DNA from: a virus
DNA length: 64,000 bases
Direction: 5' to 3' (one strand)
IMG/VR virus record: IMGVR_UViG_3300049729_000211
Coordinates: 1-64,000 of that record
Both the position numbers and the translations under genes were made by a program. Of the stretch, positions 10,114-55,061 are shown piece after piece (the first letter of the stretch is position 1; every line of letters starts with the position of its first letter). The notes below the pieces were generated by a model that searched no databases, was not told the origin of the DNA, and was given only the letters and a program-made list of their open reading frames with translations.

Positions 10114-10572
10114 ATGCCGAGTTTTGTCAAGTTTGCGTACACTGTGGAAGCTGAGGTCACCTTCACCAGAGAAGAGTACCTGCTCCTCATTGAGCTCGCC
10201 AAGATGCACTACGACTACACCTGCCAAAATGCTGGGCTCAAGGGTGGTGAGTATCATCCCAAACGCTGCTCTGAGAGTCGAGAGAACGGCTTCCTGACCA
10301 TACTGGAGATGTTCCCGACCACTCCCGAATACACCACGACCGTCTGGCCATTCCGCAACTTTGACATCACGATGAAGATCCTCGAGCAGAGGCAGATGAT
10401 GCCCTACAGGCACAAGGAAATTCTTGACCGCATCGTCACGGAAATCTCCAAGATCATGCACCAGATTCAGGACGAGCACATGGCTCTTTGCCGGCGACAA
10501 ATTGATCGAATGACTCAAAGCCCAACCGTTCAGGAACTCATCGATCATGCTGGTGTTTCTGCCTCTGATTGA
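10114..10572 (+). CDS. Hypothetical protein
   Basis: A 152-residue, mostly helical protein (MPSFVKFAYTVEAEVTFTRE) with several His residues and a Met-rich C-terminal helix. No known domain. CGGAGAAGAT precedes the ATG. It begins a series of closely spaced small genes after the rII terminator. Confidence 0.75.
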   Translation: MPSFVKFAYTVEAEVTFTREEYLLLIELAKMHYDYTCQNAGLKGGEYHPKRCSESRENGFLTILEMFPTTPEYTTTVWPFRNFDITMKILEQRQMMPYRHKEILDRIVTEISKIMHQIQDEHMALCRRQIDRMTQSPTVQELIDHAGVSASD

Positions 10573-10583
10573 AAGGATATTAC

Positions 10584-10994
10584 ATGGAAAAGGTCACATC
10601 CAACAACCGTGCAACTCTCGTCCGCGACGTCCTGATGGACTGTCTCTACAAGGATGAGGAGATCACCAACGGGGAAGCTCCCGAAGGCACCATTGTGGTC
10701 GAAGGCATTATGAACAAGATGGGTCTGAATCCGAAGAAGGTGGAACTCCACCGGGCGGACATCAGGCAGTTGCTGGAGGGCCTTCCGAGAGTGTTCTACA
10801 AACAGACTGGAGGAGGATACTCGTTTCTCGGTCTTTGTGAGGATGCCGAAGGAAACCAGTGGGGAGAACACAGGAACATGGATGAACTCTGCGTCTTGGC
10901 CCAAGCAGTGAAGATGGGCAGCTGGTGCCTTCCAAGGGACATGTGGAGTGCTCTACCGGACGGAATGCCCTATGTCGTATTCGATTTGACATGA
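10584..10994 (+). CDS. Hypothetical protein
   Basis: A 136-residue protein starting MEKVTSNNRATLVRDVLMDC. The ATG at 10584 is preferred to an upstream TTG because AAAGGATATTAC gives it a ribosome site. The middle (EIRxL-like helices about 45-75) could be a small winged-helix fold, but no family is recognised. Confidence 0.7.
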   Translation: MEKVTSNNRATLVRDVLMDCLYKDEEITNGEAPEGTIVVEGIMNKMGLNPKKVELHRADIRQLLEGLPRVFYKQTGGGYSFLGLCEDAEGNQWGEHRNMDELCVLAQAVKMGSWCLPRDMWSALPDGMPYVVFDLT

Positions 10995-11006
10995 GAAGGA
11001 GAAGTC

Positions 11007-11126
11007 ATGTACGTTGCCATTTTGATTGTCGTGGCAGTGTATCTGTTGATCGCTCTTAAGCCGAGAGGGGAACTCGCTACCGAGAAGAGATTGTTCAACA
11101 AGCACTTTCATGAACACTATCAATAA
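11007..11126 (+). CDS. Small single-span membrane protein
   Basis: A 39-residue frame (MYVAILIVVAVYLLIALKPR) with one transmembrane segment at residues 2-17 followed by a basic tail rich in His. GAAGGAGAAGTC is a good ribosome site 5' of the ATG, 12 nt after the preceding gene. Its TAA is shared with the -35-like box of the next promoter. Confidence 0.65.
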   Translation: MYVAILIVVAVYLLIALKPRGELATEKRLFNKHFHEHYQ

Positions 11127-11152
11127 CCGAAACTCGTGCGAACTCCGTAGAG
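11124..11152 (+). promoter_or_regulatory. Leaderless-type phage promoter
   Basis: TAACCG (11124-11129) and GTAGAG (11147-11152) are spaced 23 nt start to start. The ATG at 11159 follows 6 nt after GTAGAG. Confidence 0.75.
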
Positions 11153-11158
11153 AGTTCT

Positions 11159-11761
11159 ATGCGAAAGGTCGGTCTATACACGAAGAGTTCACGCGGTCAG
11201 TTCGACTGCGTCCGGTGCGCTGACCAGATTGTAGCCAAGCAGAAGTATTACGAGTGGACCCTGGGTGGTCAGTTCGTCCGCTGCCATGAGTTTCACGGGT
11301 CCCACACCGCGTGTGACCTCCTGACCTACACGGATGGTGGCAAACAGGCAGCAGGGTTCAACGAGTACAAGGATTGCACAGTTCGCGCTCTGGCTTGCGC
11401 ACTCGACCTGCCCTATGATGAGGCACACGAGTATCTGCGCTTGAAAGGTCGGAAGGATCGCAAAGGATTCCATTGTCAGCCGGTATTCAACACCTACAAC
11501 CGGAATGGCAAGATGCTGGTAGGAGACAGCCCAAAGATTCGATTCAAGTGGGACGACGCAATCAACAAGATGCGGAGAATTACCATCAGTGGACCGGCAT
11601 CAGTGGGTCAGTTTATCGCCCAGGCCGATTCCAGTAAGAGGTACATCGTCCTGGTGAACGGTCACGCATTCGCAGTTGTTGGTGGCAAGATCATGGACTC
11701 GTTTGATGTTCAACTCCGCCGCCGTGTCAAGAAGTTCTGGGAAGTAAAAGAGGCAGCATGA
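11159..11761 (+). CDS. Papain-like cysteine peptidase-like protein
   Basis: A 200-residue protein with an N-terminal Cys knuckle (C17/C20) and a core resembling phage papain-like folds: KDCTVRALACAL with candidate nucleophile C73, then HAF with H169 and D180 completing a possible Cys-His-Asp triad. The DCTVRA signature is common in uncharacterised phage proteins. The substrate is unknown, and a non-peptidase amidohydrolase role is possible. The start is leaderless. Its TGA overlaps the ATG of the next gene. Confidence 0.7.
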   Translation: MRKVGLYTKSSRGQFDCVRCADQIVAKQKYYEWTLGGQFVRCHEFHGSHTACDLLTYTDGGKQAAGFNEYKDCTVRALACALDLPYDEAHEYLRLKGRKDRKGFHCQPVFNTYNRNGKMLVGDSPKIRFKWDDAINKMRRITISGPASVGQFIAQADSSKRYIVLVNGHAFAVVGGKIMDSFDVQLRRRVKKFWEVKEAA

Positions 11762-12006: not shown

Positions 12007-12966
12007 ATGGCTAAGAAAAACGAGACCGCTGTAATCGCGAACGATAGCAAAGAAGCCCAGATCGCCGCACTCACCGCGCAGCTTGCCGGTGGCGCTGCTG
12101 CTACTTCCGCTCCGGTCGCGTCCGGCGACTTCGCCAAGAAGGCTGCCAACCGTGCGACCAACAATCTGATGGTCAGCATGGGATTGCTCAGCTTCCCAAT
12201 CAAGGTCTACAAGGCGACCGAGGTTGACACGGTCAGCTTCAACAACCTTCACACCACCTGCCACCACGCTCTCAAGCAGCAGGATTACTACTGCCCCGAG
12301 TGCTCCACTCCCGAAAAGGTTGCCGTGGTCGCAAAGGACCAGATCGTCAAGGGATACGAGTACGAGAAAGGCAAGTTCGCCATCTTCACTCCGGAAGAGA
12401 TCGCTGGTTGCAAGGTTGCCGCCGACGATAGCCTGGAGATCATCAAGTTCGTCGACGAAAGCACGATCGACCCAATCTTCTACGAGTCGTCCTACTTCGT
12501 CGGACCGGACAAGGGTGCGGAAATGCAGTTCGCCCTGCTTCGCGCTGGCATGACCAAGACCGGCAAGGTTGCAATCGGCAAGGTTGCTCTCAAGGGTCGC
12601 GAGCAGACCGTGGTCATTCGCCCCTATGGCGATCGTGGCCTCATCCTGAACTACCTCTACTTCGACTACGAAGTTCGCTCCTTCGCCGGATGGGACAAGG
12701 TCCCGAACGCGGACGCACTCAGCGAGAAGTTCATGGCCGTCGCCACTCAGCTGGTCGACATGATGACCGAAGACTTCGCTCCCGAGACCATGAGCGATTC
12801 GTACCTGGTCAACGCTCGCAAACTGATCAGCGCCAAGGCTGCCGGCCTGACCGCTCCCGTCATTGTCAAGGCTGCTGCCAAGGATGCCTCTGCGGATCTG
12901 GAAGCTGCTCTTGAGGCTTCACTGAACGCTGCCAAGATCAAGAAGGCTTCCAAGAAGGCGGCATAA
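12007..12966 (+). CDS. ku: Ku homologue (DNA end-binding protein)
   Basis: A 319-residue member of the bacterial/phage Ku family. The core runs from MVSMGLLSFPIKVYKAT to about residue 270, with the expected VKGYEYEKGKF, PIFYESSYFVGPDKG and RPYGDRGLILNYLYF segments. Ku dimers thread onto DNA ends and recruit ligase for non-homologous end joining. CHH and YYCPEC near the N-terminus may bind zinc. About 50 extra N-terminal residues and a Lys/Ala-rich tail flank the core. An ATP-dependent ligase lies 5.6 kb downstream under the same promoter class. Two terminators follow. Confidence 0.9.
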   Translation: MAKKNETAVIANDSKEAQIAALTAQLAGGAAATSAPVASGDFAKKAANRATNNLMVSMGLLSFPIKVYKATEVDTVSFNNLHTTCHHALKQQDYYCPECSTPEKVAVVAKDQIVKGYEYEKGKFAIFTPEEIAGCKVAADDSLEIIKFVDESTIDPIFYESSYFVGPDKGAEMQFALLRAGMTKTGKVAIGKVALKGREQTVVIRPYGDRGLILNYLYFDYEVRSFAGWDKVPNADALSEKFMAVATQLVDMMTEDFAPETMSDSYLVNARKLISAKAAGLTAPVIVKAAAKDASADLEAALEASLNAAKIKKASKKAA

Positions 12967-13348: not shown

Positions 13349-13855
13349 ATGAAGAATGGTGTGATTTATCTTCTGAAATGCGTTGTCAGTGGGAAAGTTT
13401 ATGTAGGCCAAACCACGCAACCTCTTCAGAAGTACCTGAGTTCATGTGTAAAAGAGGCGATGAAAGGCAGTAAGAACAAGCCTCATCTCTACGCTGCCAT
13501 CAGGAAATATGGAGAAGGAGATTTCTTCTGGTTTGTACTGACTGAGGCTTCTTCTCTTCGGCTGAACGATTTGGAAATTGCTTGGATAAGATCACTTCAA
13601 GCCACTGACCGTCTGATCGGTTATAACATAGCTCTCGGAGGCGGATCTGTTCATGGAGAGTTTTTAACCAAGGAACATCGTAGAAAGATTGCAGCCAGCT
13701 GTACGGGATTGACACGATCACCAGAAACTCGAGAAAAGATGCGTCTCGCAAAGTTGAAGGAATGGCAAGATCAAGCCTTTAGAGACAAAGTTCTCAAAGG
13801 TATTCGTCAACCCCACAAGATTAACCGCATCAGTTTGGATTCAGGTACATCCTGA
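13349..13855 (+). CDS. GIY-YIG homing endonuclease
   Basis: A 168-residue free-standing endonuclease. GVIYLLKCVVSGKVYVGQTT supplies the GIY and YVG halves, followed by a Tyr/Lys-rich helix (LYAAIRKYG), a catalytic Glu in LNDLEIAWI and GYNIALGG. The tail after residue 115 (EHRRKIAAS, ETREKMRLAK) is a NUMOD-type DNA-binding region. It sits 5 nt after a small gene and before a strong terminator. Such genes spread by cutting unoccupied sites in related phages. Confidence 0.85.
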   Translation: MKNGVIYLLKCVVSGKVYVGQTTQPLQKYLSSCVKEAMKGSKNKPHLYAAIRKYGEGDFFWFVLTEASSLRLNDLEIAWIRSLQATDRLIGYNIALGGGSVHGEFLTKEHRRKIAASCTGLTRSPETREKMRLAKLKEWQDQAFRDKVLKGIRQPHKINRISLDSGTS

Positions 13856-16866: not shown

Positions 16867-17387
16867 GTGACGATTTCGAACAGTCCGTACAGGCAAAAGC
16901 CAAGGAGTTGCTCGATCACTTCGCCGCGCTCAATGAGCGTACGAATGCCACTCGCAAGATCGCCTCTCCTCCTGAGGTCGGAATCATCTTCGTCTACGAA
17001 GGTCGCCTCCTCCTTGACACCACTCCTCTGACCGAGGCTGAAGACTTCAACGACAACAAGAACCTCCACTTCAAGGCTCACGCTCGTGGACACGATGCCT
17101 TCTGGAGCCAGCTGCAGCGTTTCGAATTGGTCCCCAAGGATGTCGAGTACGATGCTGTCCCGCGTGGCCGGGTGGTGTTTGATGTCAAGACCGGGAAGTT
17201 CAGCATCTTCCTCGACAAGTGCATCATGAAGGATCAGCGCATGGTGGACAAGATCGAGAACGAGATGAACCTCCCCTCCAGCAAGACGAATCCTCCAGTG
17301 CTTGACTCTCACTACAAGTGCCCGGGATGCAAGCCCAAGAAGTCCCCGGCTCAACTCAAGCAGGAAGAGGAAGACTGGGATTTCTAG
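16863..17387 (+). CDS. Hypothetical protein with C-terminal Cys pair
   Basis: A 174-residue protein (MSDDFEQSVQAKAKELLDHF). The N-terminal 45 residues are helical, the middle has alternating strands (VGIIFVYEGRLLLDT, GRVVFDVKTGKFSIFLDK) and the C-terminus has CPGC followed by a charged tail. No family is recognised. The ATG at 16863 is taken from the ATGA overlap. Confidence 0.7.
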   Translation: MSDDFEQSVQAKAKELLDHFAALNERTNATRKIASPPEVGIIFVYEGRLLLDTTPLTEAEDFNDNKNLHFKAHARGHDAFWSQLQRFELVPKDVEYDAVPRGRVVFDVKTGKFSIFLDKCIMKDQRMVDKIENEMNLPSSKTNPPVLDSHYKCPGCKPKKSPAQLKQEEEDWDF

Positions 17388-17722
17388 TGAAAGACAATCC
17401 TTTGGATGAGTCTGATTACAACAAATTCATGGAAGAACTGAGAAGTCGTCCACCAAACCCTAACAGTGACGCTGGCATACGCATACTGTGCCAAGATAGA
17501 AACAGAAGGTTCTCACCCATTCTTGATGGGAAAATAAACCCAGATTTTGAGGGCAGGATGAGCGACACAGACCGTATTGATCTACTGACAAGAGTGATTC
17601 ATCTTCTCCTGGACAACATCGATTACCAGGCCGGCAATTGTCGGGTCAATGATATGATCGGAGCCGTTCTTCCACCTGAGATCCTCCGTATCGCCAAGGA
17701 AGCAGTGAATGTTCCCAGATGA
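17387..17722 (+). CDS. Hypothetical protein
   Basis: A 111-residue protein read from a GTG that overlaps the preceding TAG (TAGTG). It is rich in Asp and Arg, with a helix near 65-85 (RIDLLTRVIHLLLDNIDYQ). No known domain. Confidence 0.6.
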   Translation: MKDNPLDESDYNKFMEELRSRPPNPNSDAGIRILCQDRNRRFSPILDGKINPDFEGRMSDTDRIDLLTRVIHLLLDNIDYQAGNCRVNDMIGAVLPPEILRIAKEAVNVPR

Positions 17723-17909
17723 CCTTCCTCGATTCCGTGACTTCCACCAGACTCTCAGTGAGCGTGGCGAAGAGCGTGAGCCTCGCACTCCCACAGGCCG
17801 CAAGAAGTCCAATCCCAATCTCCAAAACATTCCTATTCCGCGAACTGCTATCGGGAATGAGATCCGCCGTATCATGAAGACGTGGACTGGAGTGACCTAT
17901 GAAAAATGA
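17709..17909 (+). CDS. 66-residue protein containing a DNA polymerase I signature
   Basis: Residues about 28-55 read TGRKKSNPNLQNIPIPRTAI followed by GNEIRRI. This closely matches the stretch just before motif A of family A DNA polymerases (TGRLSS..PNLQNIPIRTE.G..IRR). Nothing else of a polymerase is present, and the phage's own PolA at 51-55 kb has a divergent version of the segment. The gene overlaps both neighbours by about 11-14 nt, as expected for a retained gene. It may be a polymerase relic or a mimic peptide that binds a replication partner. Confidence 0.6.
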   Translation: MFPDDLPRFRDFHQTLSERGEEREPRTPTGRKKSNPNLQNIPIPRTAIGNEIRRIMKTWTGVTYEK

Positions 17910-18516
17910 AGAACGCGATCCACTAGGTGTCGGAAAATATGATGAATTCACAGGTGGAGTCGTCAGCGATCTAGACGTCGTCCTTGATCCCTCCCTCGTG
18001 GAGCCGATCGAAACCAAGACTCTGTCGGAGAGACTTGAGATCGAACTGAACAAGCAGGAAGTCAAGGGAGAAGAGGTCATCCGTCAGCCCAAGAAGTGGC
18101 CGGTTGCAACTGATGAACAGCGAGACACTGCACATGAGCATGACCCTGCTCAGTTCGGCCATGTGGAAGAGGGGGAAGACGAGAGCAGCATCGATTTGGA
18201 CAACTTGTTCAAATCTATTGCTCCGATTGCATCGTTTCCTCGAGAGGAACTGCTCCTCGACGCTCTCAAGGGAGTTCTGGACCTCCACAACAACATTGTC
18301 AGGGCGACTGTTATGTTCCTCGAGGATGACAAGCCTCATGGAGCCTGGAAGCATCTGAATCAGTCCAAAGGCGCGATGGAGTGCCAAGTGGTGGACGTCA
18401 TCCGCGTGTTGTTCAACCACGACAAGGCCACCAGTCTGATTCTGGCTCTCGACATTGAAGAGCCTTCTGCGGAACAGGTCGTGGCTGAAGTACTGGAAGC
18501 ACACGATGTAAATTAG
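17899..18516 (+). CDS. Hypothetical acidic protein
   Basis: A 205-residue protein (MKNEERDPLGVGKYDEFTGG). The first 110 residues are acidic and probably disordered. The C-terminal 95 residues (LLLDALKGVLDLHNNIVRAT onward) are predicted helical. No family is recognised. Its TAG overlaps the promoter of the ligase gene. Confidence 0.7.
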   Translation: MKNEERDPLGVGKYDEFTGGVVSDLDVVLDPSLVEPIETKTLSERLEIELNKQEVKGEEVIRQPKKWPVATDEQRDTAHEHDPAQFGHVEEGEDESSIDLDNLFKSIAPIASFPREELLLDALKGVLDLHNNIVRATVMFLEDDKPHGAWKHLNQSKGAMECQVVDVIRVLFNHDKATSLILALDIEEPSAEQVVAEVLEAHDVN

Positions 18517-18548: not shown

Positions 18549-19364
18549 ATGAGCCAGATCCGCCTAATGCCAGAGTTGCTTCAAGAAGAGCCGATCTCCT
18601 CTATTCAGAAGTACATCAAGGACAGCCGGTATGGCTTCCAAGAGAAGTACAACGGCAAACGTCGTGTAATCATCCGCGACGGTGGCTATGTCTATTGCTT
18701 GAATAAAGAGAGCGAAGTTCGCGACCTCCCCAGAAGTTTGGCCGCCAAGCTCCTCAGTCATCCTCTTGACAGATTTGTCCTCGACTGCGAACTCATGCAG
18801 GACGAAAGCCTCAAGGTGTTTGATGCGCTCATCCTGGGCAAACACCTGCTGGGCGGCGAAGAGTACACCACTCGCCTGGACATGATCCGCACGGCATTCG
18901 GCAAGTTTGCTTACATCGAAGTTGCTTCGCTTGTAGTCACCGAAAGCGAGAAGAGGCAATTCGCGCAGCGTCTCGAAGGCGAGAATGCTGAGGGCATCGT
19001 AGTTCGCCGCCTGGATGCGACTTACAAGCAGGGTGATTCTCGTCAACATTTTAAGATAAAATTTTGGAAGACAGTTGATACTGTTGTTATCTCATTCGAA
19101 CGTACTGATGCAGCAGGTCATCCTACCAGTGTAAATATCGGATGCTACGACAAGAAAGGTCAGCTTCAACGCATTTCAGGTGCCTCTCTGATAGGCAAAG
19201 ATCCGAGCATTCGTCCTGGATCGGTTTTGGAAGTGAAATTTCTATACTCTACACCCACTGGTCACATAGTTCAACCGGCTATCTTGGGAGTCCGCGATGA
19301 TAAGAGTCCGGCTTCCTGTACGATGGATAAAGTTCTCAAATACCGCAACAAAAACTGGAAGTAA
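18549..19364 (+). CDS. ATP-dependent DNA ligase
   Basis: A 271-residue minimal ATP ligase. EKYNGKR places the adenylated lysine at K33 (motif I). FVLDCEL (motif III), EGIVVRR (motif IV) and HFKIKFWK (motif V) follow in order, and the C-terminal half is an OB fold ending YRNKNWK. There is no N-terminal DNA-binding domain, as in other small phage ligases. With Ku on the same strand it could carry out end joining, or seal replication nicks. It is leaderless, with the ATG directly at the predicted transcription start. Confidence 0.9.
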   Translation: MSQIRLMPELLQEEPISSIQKYIKDSRYGFQEKYNGKRRVIIRDGGYVYCLNKESEVRDLPRSLAAKLLSHPLDRFVLDCELMQDESLKVFDALILGKHLLGGEEYTTRLDMIRTAFGKFAYIEVASLVVTESEKRQFAQRLEGENAEGIVVRRLDATYKQGDSRQHFKIKFWKTVDTVVISFERTDAAGHPTSVNIGCYDKKGQLQRISGASLIGKDPSIRPGSVLEVKFLYSTPTGHIVQPAILGVRDDKSPASCTMDKVLKYRNKNWK

Positions 19365-19407: not shown

Positions 19408-20031
19408 ATGCTTATCTATGTCGTCACCAATTCCATAAATGACAAAGTTTACGTTGGACAACATCGTGGCAATAGAGCAGAACATAGATTAAAGCGACAT
19501 CTATACGAAGCAGCCCATGGTAGTCAAACTCACTTTCATCGAGCCATAAGGAAGTATGGAGCTTCCAATTTCCGGATACAAGTTCTCTGTAACGATGTTG
19601 GATCTTTGAAGGAATTAGACAATCTGGAACGTATCTGGATAATTCTACTTGATTCTAGAAATACAGGGTACAACCTGGCTCGAGGTGGATCATTTGAAAA
19701 TCATGTGGGAGCCAAGGGTTACAAGCACACGGAAATCACTCGTAACCAGATAAGTGTGGCCACTAAAGGAAGACAACCCTCTATTCCCAAAGGTAGTACC
19801 CGGTCTGAAGATTTCAAGAAGAAAATGAGGAAACCGAAATCGAAAGAACACAAGGAGGCTATGAAAGGCCCCAAATCTGCGTCTCACAGAGAGGCTATCA
19901 GAGCATCCAAACAGGTCATTTCAGAAGAAACTAGATACCGGCTTCGAAAATCGGCTATCGCTAGAGGAATTCGTCAAAGATTAGCCAAAACCGAGCATCT
20001 AGCGGTAGAGAACAGTGAGGATACTCCATGA
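19408..20031 (+). CDS. GIY-YIG homing endonuclease
   Basis: A 207-residue endonuclease: MLIYVVTNSINDKVYVGQHRG gives the GIY-YIG core, RAIRKYG the conserved helix, LDNLERIWI the catalytic Glu and GYNLARGG the closing motif. The C-terminal half (TEITRNQISVATKGR, SKEHKEAMKGP) carries NUMOD-like repeats. It lies 43 nt after the ligase. A weak promoter-like TAGCCA and GTGGAG pair precedes it, and GGAG is its ribosome site. Its stop overlaps the next ATG. Confidence 0.85.
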   Translation: MLIYVVTNSINDKVYVGQHRGNRAEHRLKRHLYEAAHGSQTHFHRAIRKYGASNFRIQVLCNDVGSLKELDNLERIWIILLDSRNTGYNLARGGSFENHVGAKGYKHTEITRNQISVATKGRQPSIPKGSTRSEDFKKKMRKPKSKEHKEAMKGPKSASHREAIRASKQVISEETRYRLRKSAIARGIRQRLAKTEHLAVENSEDTP

Positions 20032-20297
20032 GAACTTTTGATGTAATGGAAGACGGAGAAGAACGATCCAAAGCCACCTATTCCGATGGAACTCCTTGGG
20101 TTGGAGATTACTGCAGTTCCGAAGATGCTCTCAAATTGGAGGAGTGTCTACTACAAGTTCTCAACTTCATGGAAAATCCAGCGATAGGCACTTGGCCTTA
20201 TATGGAAGGCACTGGATTTTACGACGACCTTGCCAAGCAGAAGAAGGCGATCCGTAATGTACTGACCGATGTAAGAAAGATTGTGTTCAAGGGATGA
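20028..20297 (+). CDS. Hypothetical protein
   Basis: An 89-residue acidic protein (MRTFDVMEDGEERSKATYSD) coupled by ATGA to the endonuclease before it. No domain is recognised. Confidence 0.65.
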   Translation: MRTFDVMEDGEERSKATYSDGTPWVGDYCSSEDALKLEECLLQVLNFMENPAIGTWPYMEGTGFYDDLAKQKKAIRNVLTDVRKIVFKG

Positions 20298-43856: not shown

Positions 43857-44540
43857 TTAGGACTTTTTTAACCAAGATCCAGTCTCAGGATTTCTTGACC
43901 TGAGAGCCGCCGCTGCTACCATCTTCTTTGAAATTCTTTCTCTGTATTCAGGATCCTTCCATCTTTCTCTGGTACTCTTACCCACGGCCACCTTGAACTC
44001 TTGTGTATCCCAATGCATATTTTCTCTTGCATTGGGATCCTTAAAGTACTCTCTCACTCTTTCTCCCACCACCTTTCTCTTCGAAGGATCGTCTTTGTAG
44101 TATTCATCCCACATTTCTCTCATGTGCTTCTTATGCTCCGGACTTCCTATCACTAATCGGAGTTTCGCTGGCATTCCTCGTTTTACAGCTTTTCTAGACT
44201 GGAGTTTTCTACTCTCCTCCGAAAACTTGAATCCTAGCATGGAGAACGCTGTTCTACACAGATTGTAGCCGAACTCAGTCAGGTAGCATTTCGTTTTATC
44301 TATCCAGTGCTGCTCTCTTTCTACCAATTTATCCTTTTCACAGTGCTCGATGATAGAGAACACAAACTTGTCTTCTCCATACTTATCCCAGGCTCTCTGA
44401 AATTTGCTGTTAGGGTGAATGCCTCTTCTCAGATCCTCTATATGACATTTCCTCCGCCGGTCAAGTTCAGTGGATGACCCAACGTATCTCTTATTGTTCA
44501 CGATGTTTAGAAACTGATATACTCCTGATGATTCTCGCAT
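43857..44540 (-). CDS. GIY-YIG homing endonuclease
   Basis: A 227-residue endonuclease: SGVYQFLNIVNNKRYVGSST is the GIY-YIG core, with FQRAWDKYGEDKFVF, a catalytic Glu in LVEREQHWI and FGYNLCRTAFS. The rest holds NUMOD3-like repeats (FSEESRKLQSRKAV, SPEHKKHMREMW). The ATG at 44540 is preferred because the longer frame overlaps the promoter and start of the divergent gene. A TACCAA / GTAATG pair on its own strand ends 5 nt before the ATG. Confidence 0.85.
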   Translation of the reverse strand: MRESSGVYQFLNIVNNKRYVGSSTELDRRRKCHIEDLRRGIHPNSKFQRAWDKYGEDKFVFSIIEHCEKDKLVEREQHWIDKTKCYLTEFGYNLCRTAFSMLGFKFSEESRKLQSRKAVKRGMPAKLRLVIGSPEHKKHMREMWDEYYKDDPSKRKVVGERVREYFKDPNARENMHWDTQEFKVAVGKSTRERWKDPEYRERISKKMVAAAALRSRNPETGSWLKKS

Positions 44541-44548
44541 GAGCTCAT

Positions 44549-44577
44549 TACCCCAAATGTTATTTGACTTGGTAGAT
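44549..44577 (+). promoter_or_regulatory. Leaderless-type phage promoter
   Basis: TACCCC (44549-44554), 17 nt, GTAGAT (44572-44577), then 6 nt to the ATG at 44584. It overlaps the upstream region of the divergent GIY-YIG gene. Confidence 0.65.
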
Positions 44578-44583
44578 CTAAGT

Positions 44584-45606
44584 ATGGATACGAAAGTTGA
44601 ATCAATAATAAGACGTATACAGAAGCTGTTCAACATGGCGAACAATGCCGCCGGAAATGAAGAGCAGGCATCATCCGCACTTGCCAAAGCGCATGAACTC
44701 CTGATGGCTCACAATCTGAGTCTGGCTGTAGTTCAGGACACCGTCGTGAAGGGTGGAGTCCAGAACGGCACCGCCGTCACTGAGGAAGTCCGCAAGCCTG
44801 TCACCATCAAGCGCAGCGCGATGTACAAGTGGCAACGCCGGATGTGGGGCACCCTGGCTCATGTCAACCACTGTTTTCACTGGGTTCACGATGTCAAGGA
44901 TGGGAATCACAAGAGCCGTTGGGATGACGGATACAAGACCGCTCGCTGGGTGAAGCGCCACGTCATCTTGGGTCGCGAGAGCAACGTGATCGTCGTCAAC
45001 CTGATGGGCGAGTATCTCTGTGACACCATTGAACGCCTATGCCCCTATGCTCCGGTCGACCGTCTGAGCCGCGCTGCGGTCAGTTGGCGGGAAGGGGTTG
45101 CCGACCGACTCACTGAACGTCTGGTCGATCAGCAGGAGCAAGAAGAGGCAGACAATCGTCCTCCCTGCCCTGAATCTCCAGGCCTCAAGAAGAAGTGGAT
45201 GGCTCAGTATGCCACCATGGCCCTGGCTCTCAAGGATGTCCGCAAGACGGAGTACGAAGCCAACTATGATGCCGTCCGTGGCGAAGGTGCCTACAAGAAA
45301 TCTCAGGAAGCACGCAAGGTATCCGCAGTCGAAGCTGAGAGAATTCAGCAGGAGCGGATCGAGTTTCTACAGAACGAAAGTCCTTCGGATAAGAGGAAGC
45401 GCGAAGCTGAAGAAGAGCGCAGACGCATTCGTTCGAACGTGGAAGCGGAGCGCAGCTATCGCCGGCAAGAGCGTGAACGGCTGGACGATGCGGCTCGTAC
45501 CGACTGGCGCGCATATGACAAGGGCAAGAAGGTTGGTGATGGCATCAGCCTTACAACTCAGGTGGGTGGTTCAAGCTCCAAGCCCACTCCGGCACTGGAG
45601 GGATGA
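44584..45606 (+). CDS. DUF2786-type protein
   Basis: A 340-residue protein starting MDTKVESIIRRIQKLFNMAN, then EEQASSALAKAHELLMAHNL, which is the DUF2786 helical signature. A middle region with VNHCFHWVHD and RWVKRHVILGRESNVIVVNL follows, and the C-terminus is a long charged coiled coil (EAERIQQERIEFLQNE...). The ATG at 44584 is preferred to an upstream start because the promoter spacing and the family start both point to it. Function of DUF2786 is not established. Confidence 0.78.
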   Translation: MDTKVESIIRRIQKLFNMANNAAGNEEQASSALAKAHELLMAHNLSLAVVQDTVVKGGVQNGTAVTEEVRKPVTIKRSAMYKWQRRMWGTLAHVNHCFHWVHDVKDGNHKSRWDDGYKTARWVKRHVILGRESNVIVVNLMGEYLCDTIERLCPYAPVDRLSRAAVSWREGVADRLTERLVDQQEQEEADNRPPCPESPGLKKKWMAQYATMALALKDVRKTEYEANYDAVRGEGAYKKSQEARKVSAVEAERIQQERIEFLQNESPSDKRKREAEEERRRIRSNVEAERSYRRQERERLDDAARTDWRAYDKGKKVGDGISLTTQVGGSSSKPTPALEG

Positions 45607-46839: not shown

Positions 46840-46955
46840 TAGTCGTTGTCGTCATCCCACCACATCACATCCGACGAATTCTTGCTGGAGTACCTGACCA
46901 GCCAGATAAATCCAACTAGCAGTGCTCCTGCAACGATCAAGCCTACAACCTTCAT
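46836..46955 (-). CDS. Small single-span membrane protein
   Basis: A 39-residue protein: MKVVGLIVAGALLVGFIWLV is a transmembrane helix, followed by a short tail ending in Asp/Trp/Tyr residues. AAGGGAATGTA precedes the ATG, which overlaps the GIY-YIG stop (TAATG). Confidence 0.6.
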   Translation of the reverse strand: MKVVGLIVAGALLVGFIWLVRYSSKNSSDVMWWDDDNDY

Positions 46956-47629
46956 TACATTCCCTTCTGTGAATTGTACCGTCTCAAGTTGATCTTATTT
47001 TGAGTTTTCTTCAGACAACCGCAACTCCGAGTGTGACCACTACGCAGATTGCTCCCATAAGCAGGAAATAATTTTCCACAACGACAGCGACATAGCCATC
47101 TTGCGTCACCTTCGGAATTATTCTCCAATCGTTCTAGTACATTAATACCACCAAAATCCACTCCTGACAAGTCTTTGAATGGTGCTCCTGGCCAAATTCC
47201 TATATTTTCTTGAGTTTGTTTCCTGACGCGAATACTTTCTAGAGTCGCCTCAGTAGAAGGCTTGTATCCCTTCTCTCGGAAATTTCTACTCATGAACTGT
47301 TTCCACTCAGGAGTATGTGGTCCTGTAAATCCTTCCCCACCTTTGCAGATGTTGTATCCAATCTCATGATCACGAGTTGAGAAGATCTCAATCAGCGTCT
47401 GTTCCCAGACACAAAGAGCCTCGTTGCTAGTGCAATCATTGATAAGCGGAAAGATTTGAAAGTGTTCCTGACCATGCTTGCGAATAGCAGCATACAGGTG
47501 AGAGCGCAGCGAAAGATAGTTCTTTGCGTCGTAGAATTTCTGCTTCAAATATCGAGAAAGACAAGACCCGGTAGTCTTTCCAATATAGCATTTTCCATCA
47601 ACATCATTGACTATCAGGTAAACAAACAT
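46955..47629 (-). CDS. GIY-YIG homing endonuclease with zinc domain
   Basis: A 224-residue endonuclease: MFVYLIVNDVDGKCYIGKTT core, LYAAIRKHGQEHF, a catalytic Glu in CVWEQTLIE, GYNICKGGEG. The C-terminus (CRCRCGKLFPAYGSNLRSGH..CGC) is the same zinc block as in the HNH protein at 28.9 kb. The ATG at 47629 follows GGAGGTCAGAA; the longer frame overlaps the portal gene. It sits just downstream of the portal gene. Confidence 0.85.
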   Translation of the reverse strand: MFVYLIVNDVDGKCYIGKTTGSCLSRYLKQKFYDAKNYLSLRSHLYAAIRKHGQEHFQIFPLINDCTSNEALCVWEQTLIEIFSTRDHEIGYNICKGGEGFTGPHTPEWKQFMSRNFREKGYKPSTEATLESIRVRKQTQENIGIWPGAPFKDLSGVDFGGINVLERLENNSEGDARWLCRCRCGKLFPAYGSNLRSGHTRSCGCLKKTQNKINLRRYNSQKGM

Positions 47630-47673
47630 TTCTGACCTCCTAGTCTGATTCAGGAAGTCAGAAACGTAAGTTG

Positions 47674-50241
47674 CTACATTCCCTCTCCGGATCCTTCGAG
47701 GTTGGCATCGTCTTCCTCTTCGACTTCGTCGAGGCCCATACCCTTTGCCAGTCTCTTCCACAGATCGGTCTTCTTGATGATGACGTCTGTGATGCTTCCG
47801 TACAATGAACCGAGTAATTCATTAAACTTGGAATCGTTGACAGTGAAGAGGTCGTCTTCTAGTTGGCGCTTGACTGTCTCGGCATCGATGTTCAGGAAGT
47901 CCAGAATAATCGATACTGGGAGAGAGCCTTTTGAGTAGATATTATACAACATGTCGTAGAGGTCACCACTATCCCTCAAAGCCATACGAGAGAAGGTTAC
48001 GTGCGGATACACCCACCTGGGTCGTCCAAATTTATCAACTTCATAGAATCCCTTCTTCATAGCGATGGGCTTGAAGATCTGATCCTCAATCAGTCCACTG
48101 ATGAGATCACGGAACTGGACATATCTGGTGTTAAGGATTTCGAGCTGGATGCGGTTTCCAGAATACATTCCTTCACCAATGAGGATCTCAGGAGAAAGTC
48201 CAAGTCCGATTGCGAGATCGGAATTGGTGTGAGCCCATTCTCCGTCCAGAGATAGGAGCCGTCCTTCACTTCCAATTTCATTCCACTGACAGTCATAGTT
48301 CACCACAATCGTATAGTCTGGATCGGCAATCGCTTCGTCCACGTGAGCACGAAGGGCTGCCAACTCGGAGGTTGGGCATTCAGGAGCGATGATCAGCCGC
48401 TTTGGCGTCATGTTACGCGAAGCGATCATGGTCTGCGCCTGACGCAGTTTGTCACGATAGAGAATGGTGCGCAGTACCGGCTGCAGGCTTGAACGACCGT
48501 GCAGTTCATACCCGCTCTTCTTGCGAGCGAAGTGAATGACGTACGATCCTTCGAAGGGATCCTGATTCAGGTTGATGGCGCCAGTAGCCTGCAGTCCATC
48601 CTTCACACTCTGAGGAACATTGATGTCCTCGGTGTACTGCTGCTTCTGCTGCTCTGGTGGCTTGTAGTAGATGGAGGGACCGTCGCCTTCCATCTCACCA
48701 TCGTTTTTGACTTCAATCTGCTCAGGAGGAAGAGTTCGGATGCGATCAATGCCCAAGTAGTCCGGATTGACCACGTGACTGAAGAGCTCAAGTTCTTCGC
48801 CGCGCTGCTTGCTGACTTCCTTGAGTTCCTCGAGCAGTTCCTTCTTTTTCTTGAGGAGCTTCAGGTAATGCTTGAGTTCCATCAACTCTCGCTGGCGAGC
48901 CACCGACTGACCGATAGCCATGGCAGGAGACCCACCAACTTCATCGGCTGAAACTCCACCGCCGCCTCCACCACCGCCGGAAGGAATGGGGCCACCGTCA
49001 TCGCCCATGACTCCTGCGCCACCGCCGCCACCCATGGGAGCACCTTCACCACCGGCTTCGGGGTTGCCATCCTCATCCTGACCACTGGCGCCAGGAGCAT
49101 CATCGGACATCTCTTCGTTGGCTTCACCGGACTGAGCACCAGCCGCCTCAGCATCAACAGGAGGTTCAGCAGGCGGAGCAGCCATCTTGTGGATGAGCTC
49201 AAGTGTATCCGAAGATCCGTTCGCGATGATCTTTCCCTGCTTGTCGAACTTCAGGTGATGCTTGGCCATGAAATCAGCCAGAGACTGGGCACTTGCGAGC
49301 AGTCTCTTTTGAAACTTGTAAATCTGTGCATCTACCAGCGTCAGGTTCTCTTTGGGATTGAAAGAGATGCCGGCTTTCTTGATCTTGAGGATGTCCTTCT
49401 TCATGCTTTCAGAGGACTGATGGAGGGCCGGAGTCAGCCAATCCATGCCATGGCTTTCACCGCCAAGTTCGGCATTCTGAGATTCCTTCATGGGATCGTT
49501 GCTGGGACCGCCGCGTTTGTTCTTACTGAGAGCCTTCTGGGCTTCCTCGCAAACTTCAACTTTCTCTTCTGGTTCCTCAACAAAGAGGAATGCCTCGCCG
49601 ATGGTCCAGTATTCACGGACTGCATCGATCAGGGTTTGGAACATCTTGGTATCGTTCACCATGCCCTGGTAGAAGTCGAAGACGAAATCAGCAAATTCTT
49701 CCGATGTGCACTTGGGCTTCTCCAAGGTCATCTTGGACATCGGGAGTTCTGTGTGCAGGTTGATGGCGGAGTTGACCACAGGGTCGCGGTCATAGGCGAT
49801 GCGATAGTAGCGAAGCTCTTCAGGTCGGGAAGCAGGAAGCTCGAGGGCGTCTACCGGGAACTCGAAACCCATGTACCCGATGTTGCCTGAGTCTCCAATG
49901 TTCGCATATCCCAGATTGCCATCACTGAACAGGCCTGCTACTTTGCTGGCAGCACCGCCGCCTCGAGCAGCTTCACGGATATTTCGAATCCGATCCCGAT
50001 AAGCAATGTCTTCTCCCAGTCGTCCTTGACCATCGACCGCACTGTAACGTCCAGCACTGCCATACTCGCGAGTGCGGGTGGTCGTGGTTCCATTTGCATC
50101 AACAGTTGTAACGACCTGCGATGCTATCTTCCGAGGAGTCACCACCTGAGAAGGATTGACTTCCACGTTGGATCTGTTCCTAGCTTTGTCCTGTGGAAGC
50201 GGAACCTTTGCCACTTTCGTGACTTTTTCATCATTGGGCAT
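47674..50241 (-). CDS. Portal protein
   Basis: An 855-residue protein identified as portal from the middle and C-terminal core: YRDKLRQAQTMIASRNMTPK, WAHTNSDLAIGLGLSPEILI, NRIQLEILNTRYVQFRDLIS and FGRPRWVYPHVTFSRMALRD, typical of large-phage portals. Portals form the dodecameric ring for DNA entry and exit and bind TerL. A Gly/Ala/Asp-rich low-complexity insertion lies at about 350-430. The ATG at 50241 has TGAGGTTCTGTT upstream. TerL is 8 kb away on the same strand. Confidence 0.8.
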   Translation of the reverse strand: MPNDEKVTKVAKVPLPQDKARNRSNVEVNPSQVVTPRKIASQVVTTVDANGTTTTRTREYGSAGRYSAVDGQGRLGEDIAYRDRIRNIREAARGGGAASKVAGLFSDGNLGYANIGDSGNIGYMGFEFPVDALELPASRPEELRYYRIAYDRDPVVNSAINLHTELPMSKMTLEKPKCTSEEFADFVFDFYQGMVNDTKMFQTLIDAVREYWTIGEAFLFVEEPEEKVEVCEEAQKALSKNKRGGPSNDPMKESQNAELGGESHGMDWLTPALHQSSESMKKDILKIKKAGISFNPKENLTLVDAQIYKFQKRLLASAQSLADFMAKHHLKFDKQGKIIANGSSDTLELIHKMAAPPAEPPVDAEAAGAQSGEANEEMSDDAPGASGQDEDGNPEAGGEGAPMGGGGGAGVMGDDGGPIPSGGGGGGGGVSADEVGGSPAMAIGQSVARQRELMELKHYLKLLKKKKELLEELKEVSKQRGEELELFSHVVNPDYLGIDRIRTLPPEQIEVKNDGEMEGDGPSIYYKPPEQQKQQYTEDINVPQSVKDGLQATGAINLNQDPFEGSYVIHFARKKSGYELHGRSSLQPVLRTILYRDKLRQAQTMIASRNMTPKRLIIAPECPTSELAALRAHVDEAIADPDYTIVVNYDCQWNEIGSEGRLLSLDGEWAHTNSDLAIGLGLSPEILIGEGMYSGNRIQLEILNTRYVQFRDLISGLIEDQIFKPIAMKKGFYEVDKFGRPRWVYPHVTFSRMALRDSGDLYDMLYNIYSKGSLPVSIILDFLNIDAETVKRQLEDDLFTVNDSKFNELLGSLYGSITDVIIKKTDLWKRLAKGMGLDEVEEEDDANLEGSGEGM

Positions 50242-51152: not shown

Positions 51153-54100
51153 TCACTCCCTTATGAATGAGTCCGGAACCCGAATCGCATTGACGTCTGT
51201 GAAGGTGACGACCTGTCCTTGGTACATCGCCTTGACCTTGTTGGTTCCGATTCCCAGAGACTCGCGCAAAGCCTTGGCGTCAGCCGCCGTCAGGTTCCGA
51301 AGTTCGGGAATATCAGCCTTCGCCGGCAACTTGAGGTTTGGTTTGGGTTCAGGCTTCGCCTCAGGAGGCTTTACAACAACCTTCCGTACAGGGATATCCA
51401 GTAGAAGCTCGTTCTCGTCGATCTGAGTGCCTTCTGCCTCAGCGATTTGTTTGTGTAGTTTACCGATCTCGCTGCGGAGATTGTCCTCGTCATCGAGTTT
51501 GGTGTCGAGTTTCTTGTTCAATTCCTCAACGATGCTGACAACTTGCTTGCGTTCCACGATTTCCCTGGCCTGTTCTGCGATCTGCTCTCTATCTTCAAGA
51601 GTAATCGGCTTGGGAATGTCCGTGGTGAACTGAATCTCCAACTGCTCATCCTCTCCTAGAATCGGAAGCTCGGGACGCTTGACATTGATGTCAAGAGGAA
51701 TTGCACCGATATATCCGAACACCGGCATCAGGCCGCGATCAGCAGGAGTGAGACCACACCGGGCTTCGAACTGCTCGAGGGTCTCCAACTTGTCATCCTG
51801 ATCCTCAGGGATTTCATCAGTCTTCCAGAATTCATGAAGCTGGAGTCCGATGATGAGATACTTGCGCATCTCCTTGCCATCCTTGGCCGCGAAGATGTGC
51901 TTGGAGGCTTCCTCGAAAGCACGAGTGTGCAAGTTCTCCTTGAGCCAACCCTTGACCTTCTCGCGACGTTTCTCATCACCAGACTTGAGAGCAGTGAGCA
52001 GTGCCCTGACCGTGTCAATGTCGAACTCTTCCGGAACATAGTTCTCCATGCCAGGGATCTCCGACCAGCCGGCAGGCTTGTGGCCGTCATCGCCGGTCAA
52101 GTGGTGTTCAACATCCCAGCTGCGACCGTACTCAGTGTCACACTCCAAAGGGACGCGCCAGTTCATCGAGGCATGATACTTCCTCAACTTCATGAGGCGA
52201 GTCAGCCTCGGCAGAATGAATGGAGCGTACTCGTTCTTGAATGAGAAGTCGATCTCATCGTGGACCGAACCATGCATCAACAACACTGCTTGTACCATAG
52301 GATCCTTTTCTGCTGCCCACTTGCGGATTCGATTGAGCGTGATGCGCATGAAGTCGCCAGCGAGACCCTGCATCGGGACATTGACAGCAACTCTCTGAAT
52401 CTTCCCCATGAATTGGTTGTAGTCACCAACATTTCGAACGCCAGTTTCTGGCGTCTTCCACATTATGTCGGCGCGGTCGCGAAGTTCCCGGAAAGTCTCC
52501 TTGTCCTTGGACTTCTCAGCCAGGGTGGCCGCCTTATCCAACCGACGATATTCCCAATAATTGTCCATCTCGTGCTTGGTCGGATTGTGAATGCCCAGGG
52601 CTGACATCGCTGAATCAAACTTGATGATTCGTCCAGTCGCTGTCTGACACGTCATCTTCTCCTTGGCAATGGCTTGCTTGCGGTCGCAGTACTCGCGGAA
52701 GACCGGCACTCCAGCCCAGTAGGCATCCACCATCTCCTGTGCATGCTCAAAGGTGATGTTGGGATCCTTCTTCTTCATGTTCTCGAAGATCGTGTAAGCC
52801 GTTCCGCCGTACAGCAGGGCGAAGTTGAGGATCTTGGCGAGAGCACGATAGCTCTTCTTGGTCGCCTTGTCGATGTTCGGGTCGTTGAACTCAGGGAAGA
52901 CCTTGCTGGCGGTCAGACTATGGAAGTCTCCTGATCCCTCCAAGAATTCCTTGATGAATTCCGGCTCGCCTGAGATGTTCGCTGCCACACGCATTTCGAC
53001 GTTGCTGTAATCGATAGTGGCGAACGTCCAACCCGTAGGAGCCTTGAACATGGCGCGGAGGTTGATGACCTCATTGGCATCCATGCGCCCATTCTCGATG
53101 AGAATGCCATAGTTCTTTGCGCAGGTCTTACAACCGGGCACCAGGCAGATCGCATATCCCAGGTACTGCCCGATGTGATTCTTGATGATGTTCGGAGCCT
53201 TGACCTTGTACTCTTCCTTCTTACTGTCAAAGATCTCCTTGACAATAGCTCGCCCATCCTTGTCGACCATGGGCTTGGTATCCCAATCGAGGACCGGCTC
53301 CTCCCCAATCTTGGTCTTGATTGTCCTCTCTTCCGTCTTCCAGCACGACGGGTGAAGGTCTTCCGGAGCGTGCTCCTCGACGCTCTCGGGGTCTACGTTG
53401 TCTGGCTCGAGGACATTACCCTTGACCCACCAGTTGCCTTCCACGCGCTTGATACCCTGAATGTTGAGACCGAAGCCGCCGTCGACTTCGTACTTGCCAC
53501 CTGTCGCTGACAGACGGCCACCGGCCACGACGCAGGATCTCAGATAGATTCGAGCGGTGTGATCCTTGGGGTCGAAGTGAAGGTTCTCAGGGTGGAGGGC
53601 GACATATGCCTTGTACTTGCCATAGGTCTTGAGGAAGATGTTATCAGGGTAGATCTTCGCTAGATCCGAGATGGTCTCAGCATCACACGAAGGATCCTGG
53701 GTCTTCTTGGAGCGCCGCAACACACGGAGCTTCATGGTCTGGAACAACAGCTTGGCCATCTGTTTGTTGCTGTCCGGGTTGAACTGCTCTCCATCCTCTT
53801 CCTTGTACCCGGCTTCGATAGCAATTCCACGCAGCCGTGCCCGGTCAACTTCCAGCTTGGCTTGGTGCCACTTCACTGTACGCTTATGGCGGTCCGTGTC
53901 CACGATGTACCGCTGCCGCTCAATCCACGTGAGCGAGTCTACCAGTTCGTGGTCAATGCGATGTACCAGCTTCAGCTTCCGGGCCTCATCCTTCAGCTGC
54001 CACCAAAGTAGCCAGGTGCAGATTGCGTCACTGGCAGCGTACCAGTATGCGATGTCAGTCGGAATCCAAGTGAACGGGACATACTGAATGCGAGTCGTGG

Positions 54101-55061
54101 TCTTTCCGGTCTCTGGATTGAAGAAATCTGCACTGACCTTGCCGATCTGGTCCAGTTCAATCTGGTCGATGCCCAGCTTGATGAGCGAGAGATTCTTCAA
54201 GCCGCCTGTGTCGCCGGTGTACTGTCCCTTCTTCTGGTCACCAAGGTCTGCTTTGGGGTCGTTCAGATAGTTGAAGACCTGAACGTCCTCGAAGAATGGA
54301 TAGGGGCGCATGTCTATGCCCAGGGTCTGACGGATGACCTCACGATCGAATTTCGCGTGGTAGAACACCAGGTGACAGTTATTGAACAGATGCTGGAGGA
54401 TCCTGTGGCAATCTTCACGGGAGACGTTGTGGCCATCTGCGTGATTGATGGGAACGTAGATTCCCTCAATGCCATCGGCTGAAAGGCAGATGCCGGCGAT
54501 CTCCATCTTCACTTCATAGATGGGAACCCAAACCTCGTTGCCACTGGTGTCTCTGGCCTGCACCAGATCGATCATGACACGAGTGTCCAGCGTGATGGTC
54601 TCAGTGTCGCAGGCGACTACCGGGAGAACCTGACCAGAGGGCGTGGGATGATGGAGAGAAGTGTCATGCAGAATCTTCTCCACCCATCCCTCAAGTTCCT
54701 GGGCTGAGTCGACCCGGCGAAGCACCTTGGAGGCCATCCACGGTCTCTTCAACTTCTCAATGTCGAGGGTCTTCAGCAGAGCGCGGAACACAGTCCGTAG
54801 ATCCTTGGGCTTCTTCTTGGCCGCTGGCTTCTTGGATGCTGCCGGAACAGTTACCTTGACATCGTCGTCACTGATATTCTCTTTCTTGACCCGCGTCTTG
54901 CGTGGCTTCTTGAGCTCAGTTACAGCACTGACCAGCTTGTCCACAGCTTCGACGATCTCTTCTTTGAGAGCAACCTTCTGCTCCCGTTCTTCCCAGTCTT
55001 CTTCCTCTTCGTCATCCGTCCATTCAGGATGAGCTACCTCATCAATGTCATCTTCACTCAT
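51153..55061 (-). CDS. polA: Family A DNA polymerase with long extensions
   Basis: A 1,302-residue replicative polymerase. The 3'-5' exonuclease motifs are CDTETI (D152/E154), YHAKFDRE and YAASDAICT. Polymerase motifs are A (DYSNVEMR, D684), B (YRALAKILNFALLYGG) and C (HGSVHDE, H934-D935-E936). Compared with about 930 residues for E. coli Pol I it has an acidic and basic N-terminal extension (1-100), a roughly 110-residue insertion with CLVPGCKTC between the exonuclease and motif A, and a 350-residue C-terminal extension of unknown role. It overlaps the CHC2 gene by 8 nt, so replication genes are coupled. Confidence 0.92.
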   Translation of the reverse strand: MSEDDIDEVAHPEWTDDEEEEDWEEREQKVALKEEIVEAVDKLVSAVTELKKPRKTRVKKENISDDDVKVTVPAASKKPAAKKKPKDLRTVFRALLKTLDIEKLKRPWMASKVLRRVDSAQELEGWVEKILHDTSLHHPTPSGQVLPVVACDTETITLDTRVMIDLVQARDTSGNEVWVPIYEVKMEIAGICLSADGIEGIYVPINHADGHNVSREDCHRILQHLFNNCHLVFYHAKFDREVIRQTLGIDMRPYPFFEDVQVFNYLNDPKADLGDQKKGQYTGDTGGLKNLSLIKLGIDQIELDQIGKVSADFFNPETGKTTTRIQYVPFTWIPTDIAYWYAASDAICTWLLWWQLKDEARKLKLVHRIDHELVDSLTWIERQRYIVDTDRHKRTVKWHQAKLEVDRARLRGIAIEAGYKEEDGEQFNPDSNKQMAKLLFQTMKLRVLRRSKKTQDPSCDAETISDLAKIYPDNIFLKTYGKYKAYVALHPENLHFDPKDHTARIYLRSCVVAGGRLSATGGKYEVDGGFGLNIQGIKRVEGNWWVKGNVLEPDNVDPESVEEHAPEDLHPSCWKTEERTIKTKIGEEPVLDWDTKPMVDKDGRAIVKEIFDSKKEEYKVKAPNIIKNHIGQYLGYAICLVPGCKTCAKNYGILIENGRMDANEVINLRAMFKAPTGWTFATIDYSNVEMRVAANISGEPEFIKEFLEGSGDFHSLTASKVFPEFNDPNIDKATKKSYRALAKILNFALLYGGTAYTIFENMKKKDPNITFEHAQEMVDAYWAGVPVFREYCDRKQAIAKEKMTCQTATGRIIKFDSAMSALGIHNPTKHEMDNYWEYRRLDKAATLAEKSKDKETFRELRDRADIMWKTPETGVRNVGDYNQFMGKIQRVAVNVPMQGLAGDFMRITLNRIRKWAAEKDPMVQAVLLMHGSVHDEIDFSFKNEYAPFILPRLTRLMKLRKYHASMNWRVPLECDTEYGRSWDVEHHLTGDDGHKPAGWSEIPGMENYVPEEFDIDTVRALLTALKSGDEKRREKVKGWLKENLHTRAFEEASKHIFAAKDGKEMRKYLIIGLQLHEFWKTDEIPEDQDDKLETLEQFEARCGLTPADRGLMPVFGYIGAIPLDINVKRPELPILGEDEQLEIQFTTDIPKPITLEDREQIAEQAREIVERKQVVSIVEELNKKLDTKLDDEDNLRSEIGKLHKQIAEAEGTQIDENELLLDIPVRKVVVKPPEAKPEPKPNLKLPAKADIPELRNLTAADAKALRESLGIGTNKVKAMYQGQVVTFTDVNAIRVPDSFIRE

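Follow-up and report, generated by a model that had tools for sequence, protein, structure and literature searches.

Small phage genes that carry a segment of a family A DNA polymerase are, as far as our searches go, known so far as annotation only. The closest described ones form PHROG 12116, annotated as 'putative Pol I DNA polymerase, palm domain', which in the Caulobacter phage phiCbK corresponds to gp221. The available excerpts of the phiCbK genome paper describe the polymerase of this phage as T7-like and do not contain the name gp221 (PMC3556154), and among the titles and abstract openings covered by our literature search there was no study of a free-standing PolA-loop protein. Within the same searches, the loop-only variant described here, its recurrence and the selection test on the Caulobacter version are new.

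The gene that we compare with these lies in a stretch of 64,000 nucleotides (the window), positions 1 to 64,000 of the IMG/VR virus record IMGVR_UViG_3300049729_000211. The whole record comprises 143,574 bases, is classed as linear and is probably incomplete. The encoded protein, P0001, resembles the PHROG 12116 proteins in being a free-standing micro-gene product with the segment that precedes polymerase motif A, encoded between coupled neighbours in a large phage with a complete polymerase. It differs from them in that they begin at the loop, add IDFAEIEAR and HDEF stretches and are conserved across their phage group. Searched against the PHROG database, P0001 matched no PHROG, including 12116, at E 0.1 or better.

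Results

A small gene coupled to both neighbours

The P0001 gene occupies positions 17709-17909 (+) and encodes 66 amino acids. Its start lies inside the end of an ORF of 134 aa (17318-17722, +; 14-nt overlap), and its stop lies inside the start of a 205-aa ORF without a family match (17899-18516, +; 11-nt overlap). A Shine-Dalgarno-like AAGGA can be read at 17696-17700 (+), 8 nt 5' of the ATG, and an ATP-dependent DNA ligase follows at 18549-19364 (+). The codon score of the P0001 ORF is 0.233 per codon, as compared with -0.05 and -0.37 for two competing ORFs and with 0.03 to 0.53 for nine neighbour genes; the competing frames at 17709-17909 either score worse or contain stops. The frame is open, coupled to both neighbours and phage-like in its codon usage. 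The initial annotation had described a 66-residue gene in a coupled operon, with a set of polymerase-like peptides, and this description holds: 17709-17909 is a genuine small gene, in frame and tightly coupled on both sides.

A segment of family A polymerases without the catalytic motifs

DNA_pol_A (PF00476) is the sole Pfam family that matches P0001, with residues 26-58 aligned to profile positions 115-147 (E 4.2e-5) at 23.1 bits, which is below the curated cut-off of 34.3. A search of the whole 143,574-base record with the same profile returned the phage's own PolA and the P0001 ORF only, the latter at E 3.1e-5. With an HMM built from 93 polymerases, P0001 scored 33.3 bits while the maximum of 500 full shuffles was 8.4 bits; since these polymerases had been retrieved with the P0001 peptide itself, Pfam serves as the independent test of homology. 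The nearest solved chains are those of Taq polymerase (E 0.004), with a residue-by-residue alignment to the region before motif A.

The matching segment, residues 26-57 (17784-17879, +), comprises the TGR loop, NPNLQNIP and the start of the helix before motif A. When only residues 2-27 were shuffled, the real score was equalled or exceeded in 68 of 500 cases, so that the first ~25 residues carry no polymerase signal; with only the C-terminal tail shuffled, it was reached in 150 of 500. On average, either of these partial shuffles lowered the score only slightly. By these scores, the recognisable polymerase part is confined to residues 26-57, i.e. 32 of the 66 residues. The initial annotation had called the peptides almost the consensus, which is correct for NPNLQNIP, R, T, G and EIR but not for the nearly invariant LSS, replaced in P0001 by KKS with a one-residue gap.

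As had also been noted, there is no catalytic motif: A, B and C are absent from P0001, the Pfam match stopping at profile position 147, before motif A. Exonuclease, thumb and fingers are likewise absent from it. P0001 thus shares with family A polymerases such as Taq the pre-motif A segment, while lacking their other domains, and judging from its sequence it cannot be catalytic. We take its block to correspond to Klenow T666 to about F693, in which case it keeps R668, N675, Q677 and R682, residues that touch the primer terminus. AlphaFold, run on P0001 together with 13 segments of polymerases, returned a poor model (mean pLDDT 57, pTM 0.26).

The polymerase of the same phage

The phage encodes its own complete PolA of 1302 aa, identified by family match at 51153-55061 (-). 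By alignment, the equivalent of the P0001 segment lies at about residues 512-537 (53451-53528, -) and reads GGRLSATGG...GLNIQGIKR, divergent yet recognisable. It is followed by an insertion at about residues 540-657 (53091-53444, -), the length of which varies among the aligned relatives; the PolA sequences of L034, L037 and L038 were not picked up by the script that made this alignment. A divergent segment followed by a 110-residue insertion had been annotated from the start, and the alignment agrees, giving ~115 residues; 146 residues separate the end of the loop from the motif A Asp. The insertion in this phage group contains a conserved GYAICLVPxCxTC-type stretch, perhaps metal-binding.

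This PolA is 55-56% identical to the PolA of two IMG/VR records and 49% identical to that of Tunturiibacter phage Tunturi_5, so that the window phage, a large soil phage, is probably a relative of the Tunturi_5 group. Tunturi_5 itself, 309 kb in size, is a phage of Acidobacteriota and comes from tundra soil in Finland (PMC11924767). In enzyme family, P0001 agrees with the PolA proteins of this phage and of phages of the Tunturi_5 type, but the divergent loop and the insertion are found in PolA and not in P0001. By sequence comparison, P0001 does not represent a copy of the PolA encoded by its own phage.

Distribution in related phages and in bacteria

A first scan of viral contigs returned at least 14 loci, consisting of one strain contig and 13 polymerases whose frames span 467 to 967 aa. 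The strain contig (L004) is 99.5% identical to the window, with 99.2-99.8% over its pieces, and its copy of the P0001 gene is the same at 201 of 201 nt. Its alignment skips ~1.6 kb of the window (10137-11708), and it is without 42 nt (14 codons; window 17586-17627, in the ORF 17318-17722) and 30 nt (20081-20110), both in frame, in two small genes. The N-terminal part of P0001 used as a query matched nothing except this contig, which is also the sole place where a second copy of the neighbouring ORFs at 17318 and 17899 was found.

Among 15 PolA-relative loci, 11 were searched, together with Tunturi_5, with both P0001 and PF00476; L020 was searched with PF00476 only, and L033, L039 and L040 were left out. 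In the 12 records of relatives (11 from IMG/VR and Tunturi_5), P0001 gave a single match at E 0.068, on reading due to chance, and PF00476 detected PolA only and no stand-alone segment, the relatives' records being mostly fragments. The record G001 contains a stretch syntenic with the window, anchored by the ligase, with homologues of orf6212, orf8505, Ku, orf15534 and the ligase. P0001 is absent from this stretch, and genes for 293 and 118 aa occupy the position of its neighbourhood. The Ku-like protein (12007-12966) and the small ATP-dependent ligase have homologues in G001 in the same order and are possibly an end-joining pair of the phage. In L019 (4378-7374) and L020 (3976-6972), a terminase-like ORF of 998 aa contains an inserted stretch that reads, by eye, like an intein.

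In contigs of bacterial genomes, the best 80 of at least 211 relatives are each part of a frame of 400 aa or longer, and none stands alone. A match at E 0.01 was present in 206 of 396 Acidobacteriota genomes; among the matches listed, all except two are located in frames of 540 aa or longer, and those two are due to chance. Within its own lineage, the P0001 gene is thus an acquisition that stands isolated. The initial annotation had proposed that conservation as a free-standing gene would indicate function, and in the window's own phage family stand-alone homologues were not found beyond the strain contig.

Several candidates were considered and rejected. An origin from the polA of an Acidobacteriota host, proposed on an alignment of residues 2-53 with PolA, was dropped, as the N-terminal part of the match scored no better than shuffles and phmmer did not separate candidate donors. 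A DNA search at E <=0.001 found matches in 13 of 200 Acidobacteriaceae-side and 9 of 198 Bacteroidota-side genomes (groups named by inference from the organism of the centre genome), with the best single match on the Bacteroidota side. The Av-05 match runs antisense to the annotated gene, those in G131 and G292 contain stops, and a weak match in G008/L041 was dropped after reading; the Erwinia, Dickeya and Zuri matches are full polymerases.

The window also contains GIY-YIG-type genes at 13349-13855 (+), 19408-20031 (+), 25670-26629 (-), 43857-44687 (-) and 46955-47761 (-), and more are found in L064-L066. By similarity to the gene at 13349, the 143-kb record has at least nine of them, and G001, G007 and G011 also have several.

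Free-standing loop segments in other phages

As the polymerase consensus saturates ordinary searches, we scanned viral contigs with a DNA pattern, PNLQNIP-type DNA (first Pro CCC or CCG only) with an ATGA 48-78 nt downstream. It matched at least 119 and 87 stretches, at least 206 loci together, of which five have a stop within 60 codons after the loop: the strain contig, L357, L403, L277 and L243. L357 and L403 were set aside as interrupted polymerases, in two frames of 468 and 435 aa and broken inside motif A, which may reflect an intron, a frameshift or a split gene.

The remaining two, L277 and L243, are unrelated viral contigs. L277 (IMG/VR 3300034279_001861; 175-kb record G784) encodes 81 aa if translation begins at a GTG that overlaps the upstream stop codon, or 44 aa if it begins at an ATG inside the frame, four codons ahead of PTGR. 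L243 (IMG/VR 3300012942_001134) encodes 45 aa, also starting four codons before PTGR. Both proteins exceed the PF00476 cut-off (E 5e-12 and 2e-12, respectively) and contain the loop up to ...IRxAF, followed by a stop. The L243 protein further matches PHROG 12116 over positions 3-32 (E 6.5e-9). A separate complete polymerase is encoded in the same phage in the window and in G784, in the latter in a frame of 1167 aa; the 17-kb fragment G785 shows none, its size leaving such an absence without weight.

Both proteins are like P0001 in having the loop and helix, a stop before motif A, a Pro before TGR and overlapping neighbours, but they are much nearer to the polymerase consensus, with LSS kept, and L243 is almost without an N-terminal extension. 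The similar tail lengths of L243 and L277 are partly imposed by the ATGA spacing in the search pattern. For the class that we propose, the distinguishing features are a free-standing ORF, the series TGR...PNLQNIP...R.T...IR and a stop before motif A, and these are found in P0001, L277 and L243. The Pro before TGR is present in all three of these loop-only micro-proteins, whereas none of 156 long-frame polymerases with TGR from viral contigs has it, nor any of 91 in a mixed set; L419 is a long-frame polymerase that also has PTGR.

The Caulobacter phage version

A tblastn search with the 45-aa L243 protein led to 26 Caulobacter phage records, and with the Caulobacter protein as the query all 26 matched, at 69-100% identity over at least 94% of its length. 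The gene tables of nine Caulobacter phages each list a CDS of 237-252 nt (81-83 aa) that overlaps an upstream GcrA-like gene; in BL57, the upstream gene is annotated as hypothetical and aligned as a GcrA-like homologue. The product of the CDS belongs to PHROG 12116. The protein (MGERLSKSEPPIQNIPIRTEAGRQIKDGF...IDFAEIEAR...VHDEF) contains the loop and what we read as motif A-like and motif C-like stretches, with no fingers. Such stretches after the loop are present in P0002 and P0003 and absent in P0001. The 81-83-aa protein encoded at L421 4992-5237 and in its homologues looks like a miniature palm. Each of the two Caulobacter phages searched over its full length encodes a polymerase of its own, in a frame of 764 aa.

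For four deep pairs of phages, the Nei-Gojobori dN/dS of the micro-gene is 0.288, 0.319, 0.299 and 0.277; the two flanking genes give higher values in the same pairs, 0.475-0.661 (GcrA-like) and 0.587-1.069 (the gene that follows). In the shallow pair BL10-Rogue, the micro-gene value (0.208) is above those of both neighbours (0.184 and 0.113), and the pairs phiCbK-Swift and phiCbK-Ccr5 each show one non-synonymous and no synonymous change. The Caulobacter version is under purifying selection, with dN/dS about 0.3 at depth. The initial annotation had raised the prospect that the nearest homologues might all be full polymerases. This is not the case, because the L277, L243 and Caulobacter copies stand alone in other phages, one set of them under purifying selection.

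Discussion

Starting from an established ORF, homology, recurrence and selection on the Caulobacter version, we regard it as an evenly balanced call that P0001 is a recurrent phage micro-protein that mimics a polymerase and is probably functional. It would provide, as a free-standing copy and without the catalytic motifs, the loop at the primer terminus and the helix after it from a canonical (bacterial-type) family A polymerase. Phage micro-proteins built on this segment would form a recurrent class, P0001 among them, that so far occurs beside a complete phage polymerase wherever this can be checked. It may occupy the usual contacts of the loop, either on primer-template DNA or on the palm or a partner of the host Pol I or the phage enzyme, and as a mimic would tune or block a polymerase during infection. 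The block is presumably the polymerase part that grips the primer end, and a mimic or competitor is therefore the simplest functional reading. As AlphaFold gave no confident fold, P0001 may, if it acts, fold on its partner.

The initial annotation had listed a relic, a regulator mimicking the polymerase and a piece acting in trans. Recurrence and selection in other phages favour a functional protein, while conservation in its own family was not borne out, and since P0001 is not conserved there, we can only infer a function for the window copy. Against such a function stand its isolation in the lineage, the KKS substitution and a comparison with its sole relative that offers 0 differences in 201 nt. 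The low AlphaFold confidence, the additional motif-like stretches of the Caulobacter version and the dN/dS values of its shallow pairs likewise weigh against the overall reading. Doubtful, though possible, is the broader proposal that unrelated large-phage lineages repeatedly made or passed around a primer-grip-loop micro-protein as a polymerase decoy or regulator, directed against the host Pol I or serving as the partner of a loop-divergent phage polymerase.

For the window copy, a serious rival to which we give a sizeable minority chance is that recombination, illegitimate or driven by an endonuclease, placed ~100 bp of a canonical polA in an accessory part of the operon, where the fragment is functionless and open by chance, the other copies being separate accidents or a different gene. 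This fits a lineage-specific gene, absent from the 12 relative records and from the G001 syntenic stretch, where other genes are found, as well as the restriction of polymerase-like residues to half of the protein, the loss of LSS and the many GIY-YIG endonuclease genes nearby. Acquisition by recombination in a record with many such genes is plausible; nuclease genes are reported to mark the borders of exchanged stretches in phages (PMC10448857), and polymerase swapping is known (PMC11348598). However, the frame is open, coupled and phage-like in codon usage, and the segment is free-standing in at least three other settings, in one of which it is conserved with the low dN/dS given above.

It is improbable that P0001 is a trans-acting subunit supplying a canonical loop and helix to a phage PolA in which the loop is divergent or separated by an insertion. 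All three own polymerases examined beside such a gene do depart from the standard loop and have additional residues ahead of motif A (146 in the window, 34 in G784 with PNLQNIS, and 80 in the phiCbK type with PNIAQVP). Yet at least 34 residues precede motif A in 27 of 207 other long-frame viral polymerases, a count from a loose distance pattern that includes some misreads (e.g. L219, L326, L008 and L246), so such insertions are not rare. Moreover, the own PolA retains a recognisable loop, and action in trans is weakly placed because PolA occurs without the peptide in the 11 relatives from IMG/VR and in Tunturi_5, the aligned ones sharing the insertion. With three cases, and with relatives in which the insertion is present but the peptide is not, the link to loop divergence is a lead and not evidence of partnership.

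We hold it very unlikely that the phage has a second, split polymerase of which P0001 is one exon or fragment; the record is linear and probably incomplete, and such cases exist (L357 and L403), but an HMM of 13 phage polymerases run over six frames of the record and the strain contig found PolA and P0001 only, with the next match at E 3. Chance resemblance or a non-coding stretch hardly deserves credence, as P0001 is short and below the Pfam cut-off but matches at E 3-4e-5, none of 500 full shuffles comes near, and the competing frames are worse or contain stops.

Small ORFs annotated as 'DNA polymerase', as in PHROG 12116, should not be taken for polymerases of the ordinary kind. Whether such micro-proteins act on polymerases is directly testable with the Caulobacter phage gene, in an established laboratory system. 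If they do, a conserved loop would be usable outside its fold, as a protein part acting in isolation, and the micro-proteins would represent a compact natural way of tuning family A enzymes.
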